A DNA stretch of 64,000 bases from the NCBI GenBank assembly GCA_002238645.1, contig MPMT01000013.1:1-64000 (forward strand). Direction: 5' to 3'. This DNA comes from Alphaproteobacteria bacterium bin52. Lineage in GTDB: Bacteria; Pseudomonadota; Alphaproteobacteria; Thalassobaculales; Thalassobaculaceae. Shown piece after piece: positions 1-9,843 of the stretch. A model generated the notes under the pieces. It was given only the letters and a program-made list of their open reading frames with translations, was not told the DNA's origin and made no database searches. Each line of letters starts with the position of its first letter. The first letter of the stretch is position 1. The translations under genes and the position numbers were made by a program.

Positions 1-2
1 TG

Positions 3-1400
3 CATGAGAGTCCCGGCGGGTGCTATATCCGTGTGGGCGCATCGAAGCGGCTAATGGCCGGCGACGAGCGGTTACGCTTGGCACAACGGCGGTCGCAGGC
101 CCGCTTCTTGTGGTTCGACAAGCAGCCGGTGCCGGAGACCGGTTTCAGTACATTGGCCGAGGCCCTTTGGAAACCGTTGCTCAGCGCCGAGGGTGCGGCC
201 GAGCCGGAGGCGGCACTCGGGAAGCTGGCGCTCCTTGAAGACGATGAGGCCGGAGTCCTTCGCGCCACCGTAGCCGGCGTGCTGTTGTGCACTCAAGATC
301 CGGAACGATGGCTCCCGAACGCCTGCATCACGGCCACCAGATACCGCGGCGGAGACCGTGCATCGGGCCAGATCGACGCCCGGGAGATCACCGGCCCGCT
401 GAACGAACAGATCGCCGGCGCCGTTGCCTTTGCCGTCAGAAACATGCAGGTCGCGGCGCGTAAGGATCCGGCTCGTTCGGATCTGCCCCAGTACAGCGAA
501 AAGGCCCTGTTCGAAGCTTTGGTCAACGCAGTTGTCCATCGCGACTATTCCATGAGAGGAAGCAAGATTTTCCTGTCCATGTTCGACGATCGCCTGGAAA
601 TTCAATCGCCCGGTTCCCTGCCAAACAACCTGACGGTGGAGAGCATGGCCTCGCGGCAATCCACCCGAAACGAAGCCCTGACCTCTATATTGGCGCGCAT
701 GCCTGTCGGAGGGACCCGTGGCGGCGAAGACAGGCGTTACTACATGGAGCGCCGCGGCGACGGTGTGCTCATTATCCAACGCGAGACATGGGAACTGTGC
801 GGGAAGTATCCCAAGTACCAGATCGTCGACGACTCAGAGGTCCTTCTTGTCATTCCCGCGGCGACGCAAGAACGGAGTCCCGCTCGTGCCGTAATCTCCG
901 TGCGCTCCCACGGTCGGTCCTTTCCGGGCGCCGATCTCCTGCTCCTATTTCCGAACAAGACATGGAAACAAGCCACCACGGACGAGCAGGGCGAAGCGGC
1001 AATCGATCTGCACACGACCCAGCTGCCCATGACCGTGTTCGCGTCCGCGCCGGGACATGCCGCGCAACTAGAGCGGGACTGGAAACCCAGCGAACGCGCG
1101 CTGGCGATCGATTTGGAGGCCCTGCCGGCAGGCGGGTCCGTCATTTTCGCGGAGGCGACCGGTCATCTTCCAGGATTGAAGGGCAGGCTCAATCCCATAC
1201 GCGATGCCCATGACCGGACGTATCTCTACGCGTCGAACATCGCGATCGACGAAGGCAAGCAGCAGCCGGTCCACTTCATCCCGGGCGAGGAACTGCAATT
1301 GACCGATGCGGAAGGGACGGAACTGCACGTGCGGATCGTCGATATCGTGGGCCGGTCAGCCCTTGTCGAGTATTTCTACGCTCGGCGAGCAGGTCAGTGA
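3..1400 (+). CDS. ATP-binding protein with AlbA-like and GHKL (HATPase_c_4) domains, 5' end outside window
   Basis: The reading frame is open from base 3, so the true start lies off the left edge. The first visible residues (GGCYIRVGASKRLM, then QRRSQARFLWFDKQPVP) match the end of the Schlafen/AlbA_2 module common in ATP-binding regulators. A GHKL ATPase N-box (EALVNAVVHRDY, about residue 165 of the visible part) and a G1-type box (DRLEIQSPGSLP) follow, with a second glycine box near YYMERRGDGV. The last ~180 residues form a beta-rich extension I cannot name. Proteins of this build are common in genomic islands and defence loci. The next gene, on the same strand 66 bases on, is a broken HEPN gene, so the two were probably co-transcribed. 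Its substrate is unknown. Confidence 0.8.
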   Translation, partial: HESPGGCYIRVGASKRLMAGDERLRLAQRRSQARFLWFDKQPVPETGFSTLAEALWKPLLSAEGAAEPEAALGKLALLEDDEAGVLRATVAGVLLCTQDPERWLPNACITATRYRGGDRASGQIDAREITGPLNEQIAGAVAFAVRNMQVAARKDPARSDLPQYSEKALFEALVNAVVHRDYSMRGSKIFLSMFDDRLEIQSPGSLPNNLTVESMASRQSTRNEALTSILARMPVGGTRGGEDRRYYMERRGDGVLIIQRETWELCGKYPKYQIVDDSEVLLVIPAATQERSPARAVISVRSHGRSFPGADLLLLFPNKTWKQATTDEQGEAAIDLHTTQLPMTVFASAPGHAAQLERDWKPSERALAIDLEALPAGGSVIFAEATGHLPGLKGRLNPIRDAHDRTYLYASNIAIDEGKQQPVHFIPGEELQLTDAEGTELHVRIVDIVGRSALVEYFYARRAGQ

Positions 1401-1466
1401 TCGCCCGTTCATTCCTGAACTGCAACGGGTAGGGCTAACCGACAGATAGGCAGGGAGACGTAGCGT

Positions 1467-1795
1467 ATGGCCAAGAGCACCCGCCAGTACGTGTTCGAAG
1501 GCATGGACGTGTTGCCGGAAGCGCTGGTTCCGTTTGTGGAGAAGCGGCTGGAGAGCGCGCTGACCGGTCACTGGCAGGTTCGAGTAGCCGAAAACTCCGG
1601 CTGCACGCCAACCCCAACGGCAGCATCGCCTGGGACCAGGCCGCGCTGCTGAACGCAATGGACCGGTTCTGGACAGACGCGTTCAAGACCGTGCTCGGAC
1701 GCGCCGAACGGTCGATCGCGAACGAATTGGTCGCCGTCCGCAATAAGCTCGCGCACAACGAGCATCCATGTTTCGCGTCAAGGGGGCGTGGTTGG
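1467..1795 (+). pseudogene. Swt1-type HEPN domain gene, frameshifted and truncated
   Basis: An ATG with a GGGAG site upstream opens MAKSTRQYVFEGMDVLPEAL, which matches the start of Swt1-family HEPN domains in bacterial conflict proteins. Near 1590-1600 the homology moves to another frame (NPNGSIAWDQAALLNAMDRF, then FKTVLGRAERSIANELVAVR) and ends with the HEPN signature RNKLAHNE at about 1765. In this family the domain usually heads a much longer protein; here recognisable sequence stops at the edge of an insertion sequence. One indel plus the loss of the 3' part makes this a dead gene. HEPN domains are typically RNases or RNA-binding toxins. The identity of the missing part is inference. Confidence 0.7.
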
Positions 1796-1930
1796 CGGGT
1801 TTGCGATTTATTCACAGTTTTTCCACAAGGTTATCCCCGGGGTCGTTGCCCTCGATCGCTTCCGGTTGCCACGCACTCGCGGCGTGTCTTTGACTGGTTC
1901 GATCAATTGACTGCAGCTCGTTGAGTGTGA

Positions 1931-2596
1931 TCACGCGTTCGTTTCCGCTGCGGAGACGGGCGGTTGTGGGGTCCAGGAGCGCTGCTGGCCAAGCAGGACA
2001 TTGGCCAGGACGATCAGTTTGCGCATGACCGCGACGACACCCGCCTTGTGGGCCTTGCCGGCATTGCGGAGCCGTTCGGCGAAGCTGCGCAGGTCTGGGT
2101 TCCAGTTGATTGCCGACAACGCAGCCATGTAGACAACATCGCGCGGTCGTCTGCGGCCCCCCGGACATGGCGGTTTCCGGAGGATGTCCCGCTGTCGCGG
2201 GCGTACGGGGCAACACCGGGCAGAGCGGCAGCCTGCCGGTTACCGATCGTGCCGAGTTCCGGCATCCAGGCGATCAGGGCTGCGGCGGTGATCGGTCCGA
2301 CGCCGGTGATGGATGTCAGGATGGCAGAGGCCTGCGCATGATCATCGGACCCTTCGATGAGGATCTTGATGTCCTCTTCAATCCCGGTGATCTGTTCCTT
2401 GAGGCTCTCAACAGCGCTCTTTGCCCGTGTCACCGCCATGGGAGTGATAACGCTCTGGCTGACCAGCTTCAGGGCGGTTCTGCCGTCGATCAGCCGGTCG
2501 CGGGTCACCATCAGATCCTGGAGCTGAGCGATACAGGCATCCTGTGGCGCCACCGGCGCCAGATCTGTCAAGGCCTGACCGTATCGCTGCAGCATG
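1931..2596 (-). pseudogene. Transposase of outer IS110 element, C-terminal part
   Basis: Minus-strand translation from 2596 gives MLQRYGQALTDLAPVAPQD, a charged helical linker, then the Tnp_20 (IS116/IS110/IS902) domain with the helix-hairpin-helix stretch TSITGVGPITAAALIAWMPE and the conserved region LPGVAPYARDSGTSSGNRHV. Around 2150 the frame slips, and the remainder (MAALSAINWNPDLRSFAERL to VLLGQQRSWTPQPPV) is read in another frame to a stop at 1931. The N-terminal half of the gene is on the far side of the inserted element. Confidence 0.75.
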
Positions 2597-2604
2597 GCAG
2601 ATCC

Positions 2605-2615
2605 TATGAGGCCCC
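2605..2615 (+). repeat. Left subterminal inverted repeat of the nested IS
   Basis: TATGAGGCCCC. It is repeated inverted at 4190-4201 with one extra G. The 7 bases 2598-2604 form the outer flank that belongs to the element. Confidence 0.7.
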
Positions 2616-2722
2616 GTTCGGGGGTCGGCGCTACGGTGCCGTCTTTTCCCATTTGACGAGGAGATTGACGATGTCCGCAAGGATCGCACCCGCGGCGCCG
2701 ACCGGTGCCGAGACGACCACGC

Positions 2723-3878
2723 GTGGCCATCGAGATCAGCCGGAAGAGCTGGGCGGTGGGGCTCAAGAGCCCGCTGGGCGAGAAGATCGGGCTGTACACG
2801 CTGGCCGCGGCGGACGTGGCCAGCCTCAAGGGGTTGCTCGAGCAGCACCGCACCCGGGCTGAGAAGTCGCTGGGCCGGGGGGGGGGAGAGATGCGGGTGT
2901 GCTACGAGGCCGGAGCTACGAGGGGGTCTGGCTGGCGCGCTGGCTGAAGCAGGAAATGGGTCTGGAGACGGTGGTGCTGGACCCGGCGAGTCTCCTGGTG
3001 AACCGCAAGGCGAAGCAACGCAAGACCGATCGGATCGACGCGACGAAGATGGTGCGTGCGCTGCTGGCGTATGACCGGGGCGACGCGGCAGTCCTGAGCC
3101 GGGTGCGGGTGCCGAGCGTCGAAGAGGAGGATCGCAAGCGTCTGCTCCGGGAGCGCCAGCGCCTGGTGAAGGAGCGGACGGCGCTGACGAATGCCATCAA
3201 AGGACTTCTCAAGCTGCACGGGGTGTTCGGCCTGGAGCCGCGTGCCCGCGACTTCGATGTGGCGTTCGCGGCCGTGACCACGGCCTGTGGCGAGCCGTTC
3301 CCGCCGCAGGCCGGCCAGGAGATCGAGCGTCTCGCCAACGGCTGGGGCTGGGGCTGGTCCTGCGACAGATCGAGGCGATCGAGGCCGAACGCGACCAGGC
3401 CGTGCGCCGCGCGGAGGCCGTGCACTGCGAGGCAGGCCGTCGTGCGGCGACGGGCGCGGGCAGCGGGGCCCGGGCCGACGCGTCGATCGCGGCGCTGGCC
3501 CGGCTCAAGGGGATCGGCACCAACGACGCGACCCTGCTGATGCACGAGATCTTCTACCGCCAGTTCGGCAACCGCCGCGAGCTCGCGAGCTGGGCCGGCC
3601 TGACACCGACACCGTGGGCCAGCGGCGATGTCCAGCGTGATCAGGGGATCGGCCGCGACGGGCCCGCCTGGATCCGCGCCCAGCTGGTGCAGATGGCCTG
3701 GCGCTGGGTCCGGTTCCAACCCGACAGTGCACTCAGCCAGTGGTTCGAGGCCCGCACCGCCGGTGCCCGGGGACGGATCCGCAGGGTCATGATCGTGGCC
3801 GTGGCCTGCAAGCTCCTGATCGCCCTGTGGCGCAATGCCGACACCGGTCTGGTGCCCATCGGCGCGCGCGTCGCCTGA
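2723..3878 (+). pseudogene. IS1111-type transposase, multiply frameshifted
   Basis: Translation begins around AIEISRKSWAVGLKSPLGEK (N-terminal RuvC-like DEDD domain) and is interrupted near a ten-G run at 2878-2887 and near 2914, where CYEAG changes frame to SYEGVWLARWLKQEMGLETV. It continues with KTDRIDATKMVRALLAYDRG, then slips again at a GGCTGG repeat near 3340. The C-terminal domain follows in the third frame: ARLKGIGTNDATLLMHEIF, ASWAGLTPTPWASGDVQRD with the probable catalytic serine, and a stop at 3878. It is recognisable from end to end but not translatable as one protein. The start is approximate. Confidence 0.75.
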
Positions 3879-4204
3879 CTCCGAGTTCCCGGAACCGGCC
3901 GGACGCGGCCGGCGCTGGGCCGGGTGGCGCGTGACCGAATCGATGGAGGGCTGCAAAATGCCGACTGCGCAGATGGGTCCCGCCTCCGGAACGTGGCGCC
4001 CGCAAGCAAGCGGGATCGAGGGACGGGCCGGCCATACCGCCGGCGACCGCCCGGATACAAGTTGTGTGCGCGGCTCAAGGCGCGACCGGTGCCAACGCGT
4101 TCCGACCCGGCATGACCAGATGCCGAACCGCTCCTCCGGAGGAGACCTGAACATGCTGTAGATCGCGCCGCCATCGCCGCTTGACACGGGGGGCCCTCAT
4201 ACAA
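3879..4204 (+). ncRNA. Candidate seek/bridge RNA region of the IS1111 element
   Basis: These 326 bases between the transposase stop and the right end have no plausible gene. In IS1111-group elements the guide RNA is encoded 3' of the transposase. At 3933-3955 the sequence GACCG-A-ATCGATG-GAGG-GCTGCA aligns without gaps to the insertion site read on the minus strand (GACCG-C-ATCGATG-CCAT-GCTGCA), 18 of 23 positions. ATACAA at 4055-4060 repeats the last six bases of the element (4199-4204), as a donor guide could. Transcription and folding are not shown by the sequence, so the RNA is inferred. Confidence 0.45.
4190..4201 (-). repeat. Right subterminal inverted repeat of the nested IS
   Basis: Read on the minus strand this is TATGAGGGCCCC, matching the left repeat at 2605-2615. 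Only CAA (4202-4204) separates it from the restored target sequence. Confidence 0.7.
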
Positions 4205-4498
4205 GCATCGATGCGGTCCGTCTTGGCCAACTCGCCGAACGCGAGGGCGAAGTGCCGGGTGTTTCTCGGGTTGACCACGAGGGCCTCGTAGCCCCGTTCA
4301 TGCAGGGACTGGTGGACGCTGCGGTGATAGCGCCCGGTCGCCGCCTCCGTCACCACCCGGGTGACCGAGTGCGTGCGCAGGAAACCGTGGAGCCCCCTCC
4401 AGTTCGATGCGGTGTTCTCGAACCGGCGGTCAACACCATCGACATGAACGTCGAGGTGTTGCTTGCTGCACCTCGATGCCGGCGACTACCATTGTCAT
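4205..4498 (-). pseudogene. Transposase of outer IS110 element, N-terminal part
   Basis: An ATG at 4498 opens MTMVVAGIEVQQ. A frameshift follows within about 30 bases, after which another frame reads LDVHVDGVDRRFENTASNW and onward to VTEAATGRYHRSVHQSLHER and NPRNTRHFALAFGELAKTDR. This is the RuvC-like N-terminal domain of IS110 transposases, ending in the conserved DRIDA motif exactly where the second element has inserted. The C-terminal part is at 1931-2596. Confidence 0.7.
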
Positions 4499-4784
4499 GT
4501 CCCTCGCTCCTCGTCTTGCAACAATACGGGTATGTCCAGGCATCCATTCAGGACACGAGGGACATAAGGGGCAGGCCGACCACGCTCACGCACGGGTCAA
4601 TCACCCGAGACGCCATCGGTCCGACCTGCCCCTGATGCCTCCATCCCGGCGAGGGGACGGAGGCCTCTCCAGAGTGCATCACCACCCCGGAAACCGTGTC
4701 AAATTCCGAAAGTTTTCCACAGAGGCCCCGACACCAGCCGCCTGTGGACAAATCAACACCAAAAGTGATGAAGAGGGTCAGACA
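4499..4784 (-). other. Non-coding 5' region of outer IS110 element, hairpin-rich
   Basis: This stretch lies upstream of the outer transposase start, where IS110-group elements encode their bridge RNA. Arms GGGGCAGG (4568-4575) and CCTGCCCC (4625-4632) can pair, enclosing a smaller hairpin CGGGT/ACCCG (4593-4597 with 4603-4607). No gene is seen. That it encodes a bridge RNA is inference from the family. Confidence 0.35.
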
Positions 4785-5036
4785 AGAGGGTACGAGATAC
4801 CGGCCTGCATCTTCGACCTCGAACATTGGCCGGTATGCTTGCGTAGCCAGATAGCGCTTCAAGCTCGGGTCATAGCTCAGGTTGTGCGGCGCCATCTCTT
4901 GGTACCGTGCGAGATCGGCTGATGCCTGGGGGATGGAAGTTCCAAACTGCTCGGTGAGGTTGCCGCGGTTATGCGACCATTCAAAAAAAGGCGGTCGGAA
5001 GTCGATGAACTCGAGCTACCGTTCATGTATGCGCAT
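4785..5036 (-). pseudogene. BrxR/CapW-type WYL transcriptional repressor, N-terminal remnant
   Basis: Minus-strand translation from ATG 5036 gives MRIHER, an in-frame TAG (5016-5018), then LEFIDFRPPFFEWSHNRGNL, TEQFGTSIPQASADLARYQE and MAPHNLSYDPSLKRYLATQA, ending near DAGRYL. This is the winged-HTH start of the BrxR/CapW regulators (typical: L-FIDFRLYWEG--NRSDL--FG-S-PQAS-DL--YQE-AP-N--YD-S-K-Y). The WYL and WCX domains are missing, cut off at the presumed edge of the IS110 element. Such repressors are found almost exclusively at BREX, CBASS and related anti-phage loci. The stop codon and the truncation make it non-functional. Confidence 0.7.
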
Positions 5037-5320
5037 CCGCACTTGCGTCGGTTCCGGTTCATCCGACCCTTTTTCGATTGTGTCAAACACCCGTTTCTTG
5101 CGTTCTGGACCGATAGATAGGGGAACACACCTGGCACGATTTCGTGCAGCCCCGCTTGTGGTTGACGGGATCATGTATCGTGTTGGGAAGGGTGTGCATA
5201 CGACAGGGTCTGCAGCAAAAGTGCTGGCAGGGATTTTGCCGGAGGCCCTTCAGCTGGCACTTCCTGACATGGGAGGACTGGCGGCTCGGCTGGAATGGCC
5301 TGCGTGTGACGCGAAAGGCG

Positions 5321-6025
5321 TCAATGCGAAGTTCTGTAGGCGAACGCGGCGGCAAACCGATGCTCACCCAGGTCGATGAGGTGCCAACTGTCCGATGGAG
5401 CGTGGGGGAACCGAAATTCACCCGACCGGGCGCCCCGCAGCATTGTCTCGGGCACTTCGAACCCGGACGGGTTCAGCGAAAAGCCGGAGCCAAGGGCCTT
5501 GATAAGTGCCTCCTTCATGCTCCAGAGCCGGAAAAAGAGGTGTTCCTTCTGCTGTCCGGAGGCGAGCGACAGCAGGCGGCGTTCCATCGGGCCGTAGACC
5601 AGGCTGCCGATGCCGTCGAGGTCGCGCCCGGGAGTGCGCTCGGCCACATCGATGCCAATCCTGTCATTCGATGCGAACACGAGGAGTCCGTGCTGACCAC
5701 AGTGGCTGACGTTGAACCCCGTACGCGCACGCCGGCCGTCGATGAGAGCGTAAGGTTTGCCGTGTTCACCGTACTCGAATGACAACTGGCTGTTGGTGCA
5801 GCCCAGTCGTTCCGCAAGGTTGATGCGGAGTGCCGCCCGGCAGAGGACGAAACGCCGCCCGGCGCCGGGTACAAGAAAACGGTGCCAACGGGCCTTCTCT
5901 TCATCGTCAAGGAGAGAGAACGCGCGCGCCTCGCGATCTGCATGCGGCGCGAGATCCACGTGGAACATGGTCGCACCCGCCACGGTGTGCCAGGGCCTCC
6001 ACCACAGGGACGCTGTCGTCGGCAT
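5321..6025 (-). CDS. 4'-phosphopantetheinyl transferase, Sfp/AcpT type
   Basis: The 234-residue product would transfer the 4'-phosphopantetheine arm of CoA to carrier proteins of fatty-acid, polyketide or non-ribosomal peptide synthesis. Visible family motifs are the substrate-binding stretch GRRFVLCRAALR, GFNVSHCGQHGLLVFA, the magnesium-binding IGIDVAE, and WSMKEALIKALGSG (the WxxKEA motif). I chose the ATG before PTTASLWWRPWH because Sfp proteins begin shortly before the conserved FHVDL stretch; the frame is open further upstream and an earlier start is possible. No synthase gene is adjacent, so the carrier protein cannot be named. Confidence 0.85.
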   Translation of the reverse strand: MPTTASLWWRPWHTVAGATMFHVDLAPHADREARAFSLLDDEEKARWHRFLVPGAGRRFVLCRAALRINLAERLGCTNSQLSFEYGEHGKPYALIDGRRARTGFNVSHCGQHGLLVFASNDRIGIDVAERTPGRDLDGIGSLVYGPMERRLLSLASGQQKEHLFFRLWSMKEALIKALGSGFSLNPSGFEVPETMLRGARSGEFRFPHAPSDSWHLIDLGEHRFAAAFAYRTSH

Positions 6026-7097
6026 TTGAAACTCGTACCAGTCTGATGTCAGTCGCGTCCAGCGCCGGCGGTTTGAGGACCGGTCGACGCGCGATACCGG
6101 CGCTGCCCCCACAGTGTCGGGCCGGGACCGGATGGGAACCATCCGGATGCGTGAATGTGACAACGCGCATTTGAGGCGAGACGAGCCGAAAGGGGGAGAT
6201 CCGGTTCCGGCTTGCCGGTGCCTGTTCTGCGCAGTGCAACCGACCTCGGCACCTGCAGTCGGTCACGGTCCGTCGCGACAGCGGACGGCGCGGTTCACAC
6301 GGCCTGGAAAGGAGCCTCCTGTAAACAGCATGCCTGCTCGCGGGACCGGCGTCCGCGGTGATGTCACCGGGTCAACAGGAGATGGAAACACAGCCGATCG
6401 GAAGTCATGCTGTGCGAGTGATGGGGGTCGAGCCTTCGGCGGCGCTGCCGTATCCGGGAGGCATGGTGGTGAGCGCGCAGGGACCAGGCCGGACAGAAGA
6501 ACCGGTCAGGCGCACAGCCCGGCACAGTTTCCAGTTCCTTCATGGGGGTCGTCGTGACGGTGCCCGACACCCGCAGCATCTTGGCATTGACGCTGGTGCC
6601 TTCGCTCACGGACAGCAGCCCGACTGCCGCGGCCTTGATCTCCCCCATGATCCCGCCCGTGGCGCATGGGGCACCTCTTGCAGCGGTACCTGCACAGACG
6701 AATCCGATTCGTGCCAGTCCGGAGTCAGGACGACCCGCGACCTTCGTCCCGTTCGTGTGTTTCTTCCCCGCGCCCGACCCGGGACCGGCCACCCGGGTCG
6801 AATTGCCGTACGCCCTGACCATGTCCGGATGCGCAATCGCGGGGCATGTTGCTGTCGACAGCGCTCCGGGGCTACCTTCATGAGGCTGGACATCTGATCC
6901 GACTGATAGCTCTGCAGTGGCTGATCCGCGCGGTACTGCTAGTCTCCGCGATGGCGCTCGCCATGCCCGGCAAGGATGTGATCAGCGTGGACAACCTGGA
7001 ACCGTCTATCGGCGGGACGGTTCCGGTCACGCCTGGCGCGGCAGCAGCCTGGCTGTTCCGCCGCATGGTACCTGCCCGCTGATCCGGAGAGATCGAC
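6026..7097. other. Long region without a recognisable intact gene
   Basis: About 1.07 kb separates the phosphopantetheinyl transferase from the ggt-like gene. Open frames exist on both strands, but only one minus-strand piece (6478-6822) shows codon use like real genes here. A GGAGAG ribosome-binding site at 7084-7089 belongs to the downstream gene. Its length is unusual for this compact sequence and suggests lost genes. Confidence 0.5.
6478..6822 (-). pseudogene. Possible coding remnant, unidentified
   Basis: Minus-strand translation gives a glycine- and alanine-rich stretch including GGIMGEIKAAAVGLLSVSEG, TSVNAKMLRVSGTVTTTPMK and ELETVPGC, with third codon positions almost all G or C, like the real genes around it. 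No start, ribosome-binding site or family could be assigned, and the coding character fades below about 6480. It may be a fragment of a lost gene or a chance open frame. Confidence 0.25.
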
Positions 7098-8678
7098 ATG
7101 CGCGACCTGCACCGGCCCGGCCGTTCCCCGGTCATGGCACCGGACGCGATGATTGCCACCAGCCACCCGCTGGCGAGCCAGGTCGGGATCGACATCCTCA
7201 AGTCGGGTGGCAATGCCGTCGATGCGGCGATCGCCGCCTGTGCGACGCTGTGCGTGGTCGAGCCCGCCATGACCGGCATCGGGGGTGACTGCTTTGCGCT
7301 CTATGCACCGGACGGGGCTTCACAGCCCGTCACCATCAACGGGTCGGGCCGCGCACCGGCCGGCGCCAGCGTGGACGCACTTCTCGAACGCGGGGTTTCG
7401 ACCATCGAGGTCCAGAGCCCGCATGCCGTCACCGTGCCGGGAGCAGTCGCGGCCTGGTGCCGGCTCAATGCCGATTACGGCCGCAAGGGGCTCGATGAGC
7501 TGCTGGCGCCAGCCATCCACTATGCCGAGAACGGGTATCCGGTGGCGCAGCGGGTCGGTTCCGACTGGGCCGGGCTGATACCGAAGCTGATGGCCGATGC
7601 GGTATCCTCGCGCAAGATGACGCTCGACGGGTCCGCGCCCCGCGTCGGGACGATCTTCCGCCAGCCGGAGCTCGGCTCAACCCTGCGGCGGATTGCGAAG
7701 CAGGGCAGGGACGGGTTCTACACCGGACCGGTTGCCGACGACATTGTCGAGCGGCTGCGCGGTCTCGGCGGCTTGCACACCCTGGATGACTTCGCCGGTT
7801 GCGAGCCCGAGTACGTCAGCCCCATCTCGACCGACTACCGCGGATTTACAGTCTATGAATGCCCTCCGAACGGACAGGGGATCTGTGCCCTGATGCTGCT
7901 CAACATCCTGTCCCGTCACCAGCCGGGCGGCATGTCGGAGGTCGACCGGGTCCATCTGATGGCGGAGGCGGCCAAGCGGGCCTACCGGCAGCGTGACCGC
8001 TACGTGACCGACCCCGGGTTCTGCACCGTGCCGGTCGACTGGCTGCTGTCCGGGGAACACGCGGCCCGGCTTGATGCCCTGATCGACCCTGCCCGATCGA
8101 CGGAGATGGCGGAGACGGATTTCCCCGATCACGAGGACACGACCTATCTCTGCTGCGTCGACGCCGACGGCAACGCCATCTCGTTCATCAACTCGCTTTT
8201 CGCCGGGTTCGGATCCGGCATCATGGCGGAAAGGTCCGGCGTGATGCTGCAGAACAGGGGAAGTTCATTCCGCGTCGACCATGACCATGCCAACCGGATC
8301 GAGGGCGGAAAGCGCCCGATGCACACCATCATTCCCGGCATGGTCATGAAAGACAACGCGGCCGTGGCGCCGTTCGGGGTCATGGGCGGCCATTACCAGC
8401 CTGTCGGCCACGCGAGCCTGCTCAGCCATGTACTCGACCGTGGGCTGGACATTCAGGAGGCGATGGACGAGCCACGCAGCCTTGCGATCAACGGTGTCCT
8501 GCAGGTCGAGAACGCCTTCGCGCCGGAGACCTATGTCGAACTCGAGCGGCGCGGCCACGTGCTCGAACATGTCGCGGCACCGCTCGGTGGCAGCCAGTGT
8601 GTCTGGATTGACCGGACCGAGGGCGTGCTGATCGGAGGATCGGACCCGCGCAAGGACGGGTGCGCGATCGGCTACTGA
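7098..8678 (+). CDS. Gamma-glutamyltransferase family protein (Ntn hydrolase)
   Basis: The 526-residue product has the ggt fold: the N-terminal stretch MIATSHPLASQVGIDILKSG, then GNAVDAAIAACATLCVVEPA and TGIGGDCFALYA, and the self-cleavage site with the catalytic threonine at about residue 348 (HEDTTYLCCVDADGN). The C-terminus reads GGSDPRKDGCAIGY. No signal peptide is visible, unlike periplasmic GGT, so it probably acts in the cytoplasm on a gamma-glutamyl or other amide substrate. It starts after GGAGAG, and a cyclase-family hydrolase and an ADP-forming acyl-CoA synthetase follow on the same strand, suggesting a catabolic operon. A second family member lies at 58784. The exact substrate is not deducible. 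Confidence 0.9.
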   Translation: MRDLHRPGRSPVMAPDAMIATSHPLASQVGIDILKSGGNAVDAAIAACATLCVVEPAMTGIGGDCFALYAPDGASQPVTINGSGRAPAGASVDALLERGVSTIEVQSPHAVTVPGAVAAWCRLNADYGRKGLDELLAPAIHYAENGYPVAQRVGSDWAGLIPKLMADAVSSRKMTLDGSAPRVGTIFRQPELGSTLRRIAKQGRDGFYTGPVADDIVERLRGLGGLHTLDDFAGCEPEYVSPISTDYRGFTVYECPPNGQGICALMLLNILSRHQPGGMSEVDRVHLMAEAAKRAYRQRDRYVTDPGFCTVPVDWLLSGEHAARLDALIDPARSTEMAETDFPDHEDTTYLCCVDADGNAISFINSLFAGFGSGIMAERSGVMLQNRGSSFRVDHDHANRIEGGKRPMHTIIPGMVMKDNAAVAPFGVMGGHYQPVGHASLLSHVLDRGLDIQEAMDEPRSLAINGVLQVENAFAPETYVELERRGHVLEHVAAPLGGSQCVWIDRTEGVLIGGSDPRKDGCAIGY

Positions 8679-8796
8679 CCGGACCGGTCGCCCACTGCCG
8701 GTCGGTCGGGCCGTCGCGGCCGGAGAAATCGTGCTTGTCGGGCCCGCGGGGGATACCGACAATCCGGCATCATTGCCAGGAGGAAAGGGTCACGTC

Positions 8797-9843
8797 ATGG
8801 CGCGACGGTGGGTCAACAGGCCGGAAGGGTCGAACTGGGGTGAATTCGGCCCGGATGACCAGAGAGGCCGTCTCAACCTGCTCACCCCGGAACGGGTTCT
8901 GAACGCCGTTCGCGAGGTCGAGACCGGGGAGCGGTTCTGCCTGTCGCTGCCGCTCGACTATCCGGGCGGGCGCCTGCTCAACCCGCGCCGGTTTCCGCCG
9001 CGCCTGTTTGCGACCCAGCGTGGCGGGCTGGCAAACTTCAACATGCCGCTTCATATCACCGATCCGCGGCTGACCGACGTGGTGTGTGATGATGCCGCCC
9101 TGATCTGCCTGCAATACTCGACCCAGTGGGACAGTCTCTGCCATGTCGGTGGATGGTTCGACGCCGACGGTGACGGGGAACCGGAGATCGTCTACTACAA
9201 CGGCTGGCGTGGCGGCGAACACGTGGTCGGACCGGAGACCGACCGCCCCGGGGACGAGTTCACCCGTTTCGAGGGGTCGCAGGCCCGTGCACTGGGGATC
9301 GAGAACATGGCCGAGGCCTGCGTGCAGGGCCGCGGGGTTCTTGTTGACCTTGAGCGCCGTCACGGGAGTGCCCGGGTGCAGGTTGGCTACGAGGAACTGA
9401 TGCGGATCATGGAGGAAGACGGGATCGAGGTGGAAGAAGGCGACATGGTGTGTTTCCACACCGGTTTTGCCCAGGGGCTGCTGGACATGGGGCGCGCACC
9501 CGACGAATACAGCCTGCACCATACCTGCGCCTGTCTCGACGGCCGGGATGCCCGACTGCATGACTGGATCCGCGACAGCGGCGTCGCGGTGGTGATCGGC
9601 GACAACTACGGCATCGAGGACACCTCCGTTCCGCTGCCGCCAGGCGACGCGCCTCTCGCCATGCTGCCGTTGCACGAACTGTGCATCTTCAAGCTCGGTA
9701 TCCACATCGGAGAGATGTTCTACCTGACCGGTCTGCGTGACCGCCTGGCGGAACTCGGACGCCACCGGTTCCTGTTGACCGCGCCGCCGTTGCGTCTGCC
9801 GGGAGCCGTGGGAAGCCCGCCGGCGCCAATCGCCACGCTATAG
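8797..9843 (+). CDS. Cyclase family protein (kynurenine-formamidase-like hydrolase)
   Basis: This 348-residue protein belongs to the metal-dependent cyclase family that includes bacterial kynurenine formamidase and isatin hydrolase. The stretch TQWDSLCHVG stands where the family carries its metal-binding HxGTHxD-type motif, and VVIGDNYGIED and LHELCIFKLGIHIGEMFYL are typical of the longer subfamily. I place the start at ATG 8797, directly after the strong site AGGAGGAAAGG; an earlier ATG in frame lacks one. The stop lies 32 bases before the acyl-CoA synthetase gene. The substrate is unknown. Confidence 0.85.
   Translation: MARRWVNRPEGSNWGEFGPDDQRGRLNLLTPERVLNAVREVETGERFCLSLPLDYPGGRLLNPRRFPPRLFATQRGGLANFNMPLHITDPRLTDVVCDDAALICLQYSTQWDSLCHVGGWFDADGDGEPEIVYYNGWRGGEHVVGPETDRPGDEFTRFEGSQARALGIENMAEACVQGRGVLVDLERRHGSARVQVGYEELMRIMEEDGIEVEEGDMVCFHTGFAQGLLDMGRAPDEYSLHHTCACLDGRDARLHDWIRDSGVAVVIGDNYGIEDTSVPLPPGDAPLAMLPLHELCIFKLGIHIGEMFYLTGLRDRLAELGRHRFLLTAPPLRLPGAVGSPPAPIATL

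Follow-up and report, generated by a model that had tools for sequence, protein, structure and literature searches.

A probable IS110-truncated remnant of a BrxR/CapW-type regulator gene in Alphaproteobacteria bacterium bin52

The minus strand of contig MPMT01000013.1 from Alphaproteobacteria bacterium bin52 carries a short frame that resembles the DNA-binding end of a BrxR or CapW regulator and is preceded by an in-frame stop codon. Does this locus still specify a regulator, or does it preserve only part of one? We addressed this question in the first 64,000 nucleotides of the contig, here called the window.

The motifs LEFIDFR, NRGNL, FGTSIPQASADLARYQE and APHNLSYDPS, which a sequence-only reading had assigned to a single minus-strand frame, were found in that frame and in that order from position 5015 downwards. 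The TAG that it had placed at 5016-5018 is also in frame, with codon 5018-5016 read as TAG. Matches to PDB sequences and to a profile of relatives place the winged HTH (wHTH) remnant (LEFIDFR...GRYL) in the open frame after this TAG, at 4794-5015 (minus strand). Position 5036, given earlier as the end of the feature, is an in-frame ATG that opens six codons only (MRIHER) before the TAG. The first in-frame ATG, GTG or TTG past the stop is the ATG at 4895, downstream of SIPQASADLARYQE, and most of the wHTH is therefore without a usual start codon. Codons at 5019-5060 (minus strand; TQVRMRIHER) possibly represent the decayed N-terminus of the same gene, with weak similarity and an uncertain alignment. 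Upstream of the stop column, one of the three columns that are invariant in six aligned relatives was kept (E), and the W and G were lost.

We searched the fragment against PDB sequences using phmmer. All five matches at E ≤ 1 were CapW, BrxR or WYL-domain proteins of BrxR/CapW type. The strongest was 7tb5, a 'WYL domain-containing protein' (E = 1.1e-11) that we take to be CapW from P. aeruginosa PA17. It was followed by 9c5g CapW (E = 4.9e-11), S. maltophilia CapW 7tb6 (E = 6.4e-11), 7qfz (E = 1.9e-7) and an Acinetobacter BrxR, 7t8k (E = 2.6e-4). The available text of PMC9122601 identifies 7qfz as E. fergusonii BrxR.

A CapW profile was then built from eight relatives and none of the window's own sequence (L009, L010, L011, L024, L025, L026, L027 and L028; L023, L029 and L030 were left out, as no frame was picked for them). 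It matched the fragment at 85.9 bits (E = 1.6e-25), the sole match at E ≤ 10 among the 1253 six-frame segments of 20 aa or longer in the whole window. This is not a chance match: when positions 4700-5300 were dinucleotide-shuffled 500 times, the best of the resulting 12,373 segments scored 8.2 bits. None of the Pfam, PADLOC or NCBIfam models matched the fragment at E ≤ 1. In two full-length relatives the only Pfam match was PF13280 (WYL), at residues 127-192 and 134-200, which the fragment does not reach. Membership therefore rests on comparison with full-length members, to which identity was about 45-54%, and 30% for one relative from the family.

The translated search against profiles that had been proposed for this region thus gave a divided answer: the PDB matches were of BrxR/CapW type with no unrelated HTH among them, but the Pfam, PADLOC and NCBIfam libraries stayed silent. 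The assignment to the BrxR/CapW winged HTH held up through the five PDB matches and the relatives profile. The earlier expectation that automated callers would probably overlook the fragment is plausible. We conclude that a BrxR/CapW-type N-terminal wHTH is present in the fragment, which, judged by its sequence, appears to derive from a BrxR/CapW gene and not to be a functional member of the family.

To place the fragment among its relatives, we searched 35 other genomes of the family. Full-length relatives were present in 3 of the 34 genomes from other genera (50, 45 and 30% identity), and the one other genome of the same genus (G001) had no match to the remnant. In PLSDB 375 records matched, all below 60% identity, and a phage collection yielded one record with a weak match. 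The wHTH was 45-54% identical to those of two genomes from the family (G029 and G027), Pseudacidovorax sp. (L026), a Xanthobacteraceae member (L027), a Magnetococcales MAG (L028) and a Methylocella tundrae plasmid (L023). Unlike the fragment, these six relatives have open frames of about 290 aa (L023 as annotated).

PADLOC scans covered at least one neighbouring gene for each of nine relatives, with L011 and L030 left out, and clear defence genes lay beside four of the nine. These were HmaA and HmaC in G029; HKD+Snf2 and a type III methyltransferase in G027; a Pycsar cyclase and a TIR effector in Pseudacidovorax; and type I restriction in M. tundrae. A Serratia plasmid (L025) is a weaker case, with an LmuA match (1.4e-11) beside a Mov34-type gene. 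The remaining four gave no clear support. In an Agrobacterium plasmid (L024) the first gene had no match and was followed by ThiF-family and patatin-like genes, and in L027 the next gene encodes a NACHT protein without a PADLOC match. L028 had a match to an RtcR-type regulator on one side, with a metal ATPase and a sulfate permease elsewhere, and L029 had no PADLOC match. According to PMC9122601, 164 of 347 BrxR homologues (48%) have a defence system no more than 50 kb downstream, and our four of nine is in line with this figure. In a separate observation, a CapW-like match on a Caballeronia zhejiangensis contig (L030, 8001-8138) lay outside any ORF of at least 150 aa in a non-overlapping list, and may be another broken copy.

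We next assessed the lesions in the gene. The column of the in-frame TAG (5016-5018, minus strand) holds arginine in all six aligned relatives, and in one of them this arginine aligns with residue 17 (R) of the 7qfz chain. The available text of PMC9122601 shows that E. fergusonii BrxR requires R17 both to bind DNA and to repress; that index 17 of the chain equals R17 in the numbering of the paper is our own reading. Relative to the same six relatives, the frame also carries a one-codon insertion (FR-PP-FFEW), placed approximately at 4989-4994 (minus strand). After the stop, 20 of the 23 invariant columns were kept, and 21 of 27 were kept over the whole aligned stretch. Because so many are kept, the decay was probably fairly recent.

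The sequence-only reading had described the fragment as hidden by a stop codon. The TAG is real, but this account is incomplete, as the larger damage is truncation by an IS110-family element at about 4790, where the CapW-like frame stops and IS110-family sequence starts. Part of this element occupies 4262-4790 and its outer end (4786-4790) truncates the gene. It is assigned to the minus strand, the strand of its transposase piece, whose frame (4075-4356, minus strand) matches PF01548, the IS110 transposase domain (6.1e-8). We observed copies of the element at the ends of four other contigs of the same assembly, 94-96% identical over about 500 bp on C25 and C101 and 96% identical over 127 bp on C116 and C34. 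The five IS-end copies agree up to 4786-4790 and then differ from each other. Between 2014 and 4790 there are three IS110-family pieces (2014-2853, minus strand; 2899-3878, plus strand; 4075-4356, minus strand), the middle one being on the opposite strand.

A full-length CapW profile run against the draft assembly gave one match, at 4794-5027, which covered profile positions 13-89 of 288 across one TAG, and no second CapW piece was found at E ≤ 1. The central WYL domain is absent: the frame stops on reaching the IS near 4790, and no Pfam model matches it. The C-terminal dimerisation (WCX) domain is likewise absent, only profile positions 13-89 of 288 being represented. An intact frame of about 290 aa is precluded by the TAG, the IS truncation and the codon insertion. 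Two WYL matches elsewhere in the genome, on C17 and C97, were considered as the missing half and rejected, as the CapW profile matched their loci at E = 0.068 at best. Because the IS copies lie at contig ends in a draft assembly of 120 contigs (96.75% complete), the lost half may be on an unassembled piece.

To determine how the patch compares with the same-genus genome, we aligned positions 1-9000 of the window to G001. Positions 5261-9000 matched contig C42 of G001 with gaps (identity of 90 and 92% in the main pieces) and positions 1-1410 matched its contig C23 at 89%, whereas the sequence between 1410 and 5261 matched neither stretch. The right-hand neighbour of the remnant, and outside it, is a 4'-phosphopantetheinyl transferase gene (5321-6163, minus strand). 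On C42 (L046, 7764-16000), the G001 copy of the phosphopantetheinyl transferase gene is flanked by other sequence in place of the CapW remnant and IS pieces of the window; by eye, the long terminal ORF of L046 resembles a polyketide synthase ketosynthase. The GC content was 54.8% at 4791-5120, compared with 67.0% at 7098-64000. The lower GC, together with the absence of the remnant from the one same-genus genome, suggests that the gene was acquired horizontally.

Beyond the IS110 pieces on the left-hand side, at about 3 kb from the remnant and on the opposite strand, lie an ORF with a HATPase_c_4 domain (33-1400, plus strand; 6.4e-17), which also matched PADLOC pAgo/Aga models (best 1.4e-12), and a HEPN_Swt1 domain split across two frames (about 1500-1762, plus strand; 0.0062 and 2.9e-8), a second broken gene in the patch. 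The HATPase_c_4 ORF had four matches in G001, two of them with an internal stop. A tblastn search with the HATPase and HEPN pieces against the flanks of 15 relative loci gave no match at E ≤ 1e-3, and we found nothing that links either piece to the CapW remnant. None of the eight right-hand ORFs up to 15639 matched PADLOC at E ≤ 1e-5, and no CBASS or BREX gene was detected in PADLOC scans of three left-hand ORFs and these eight. A link of the remnant to an Hma-type system at this locus was considered and found unsupported; DUF499 was not found in this genome.

We also looked for inverted repeats upstream of the remnant. In an analysis of 4780-5330, the upstream part held only a 16-nt pair, 81% complementary with 13 nt between the arms, at 5205-5249. 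The available text of PMC9122601 reports such repeats within 200 bp upstream of 193 of 347 BrxR homologues, so they are not universal, and defines them as at least 20 bp with a gap under 8, a definition that the pair at 5205-5249 falls outside.

Could the locus nevertheless yield a protein, or have another origin? If the TAG were a sequencing error or were read through, the wHTH could be expressed, and the 20 of 23 invariant residues that survive after it would fit. We regard this as very unlikely, as the gene would still end at the IS near 4790, without WYL and dimerisation domains, and the codon insertion is also present. That a 115-aa protein with a function of its own is made from the ATG at 4895, the end of the wHTH being fused to translated IS sequence, seems more improbable than anything else we considered: the open frame exists (4895 to 4548), but it starts past SIPQASADLARYQE, leaving out most of the wHTH, IS sequence (below 4790) accounts for about 80 of the 115 codons, and no Pfam model matched it at E ≤ 0.1.

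The source might instead be another wHTH-WYL family, for example of PafBC/DriD type, given that wHTH domains are widespread and that the remainder of the protein is missing. The uniform BrxR/CapW type of the PDB matches (five of five at E ≤ 1) and the poor fit to the CapW profile of the WYL matches found on C17 and C97 of this genome make such an origin highly improbable, only marginally less so than the short protein from 4895.

Overall, our data suggest, with a probability of roughly 94%, that the stretch is a pseudogene that was acquired, was truncated by an IS and has no present function, and that it represents the first quarter of a gene that encoded a WYL-domain regulator of BrxR/CapW type. 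The intact ancestor would have been a dimer of roughly 290-residue chains that bound operator DNA via this wHTH and held an adjacent anti-phage operon off, its WYL domain sensing a signal that led to release. IS110-family insertion and deletion would then have removed the operon together with the remaining part of the gene. Most likely, no regulator is made from the remnant today.

The CapW remnant, the HATPase_c_4 gene and the HEPN_Swt1 piece could conceivably have belonged to one defence island dismantled by IS110-family insertions. We consider this proposal doubtful; if true, the ruins of the island would be a snapshot of defence-island loss. The case itself is one of ordinary genome decay, and its significance extends little beyond annotation. 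It does provide an example of a defence-regulator remnant that Pfam, PADLOC and NCBIfam models miss and that comparison with full-length members makes recognisable, and the site may record the gain and subsequent loss of a defence locus in this lineage.

The available text of PMC9122588 describes CapW as consisting of wHTH, WYL and WCX domains. Of these, WYL and WCX are missing from the fragment, which also carries a stop and one additional codon, whereas the wHTH sequence over fragment residues 1-75 is like that of the CapW proteins (7tb6, 9c5g and 7tb5; E = 1e-11 to 6e-11). BrxR differs from the fragment in the same respects, with WYL and WCX domains that the fragment is without and neither its stop nor its extra codon. 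The fragment shares the same wHTH with BrxR at weaker similarity (7qfz and 7t8k; 1.9e-7 and 2.6e-4).
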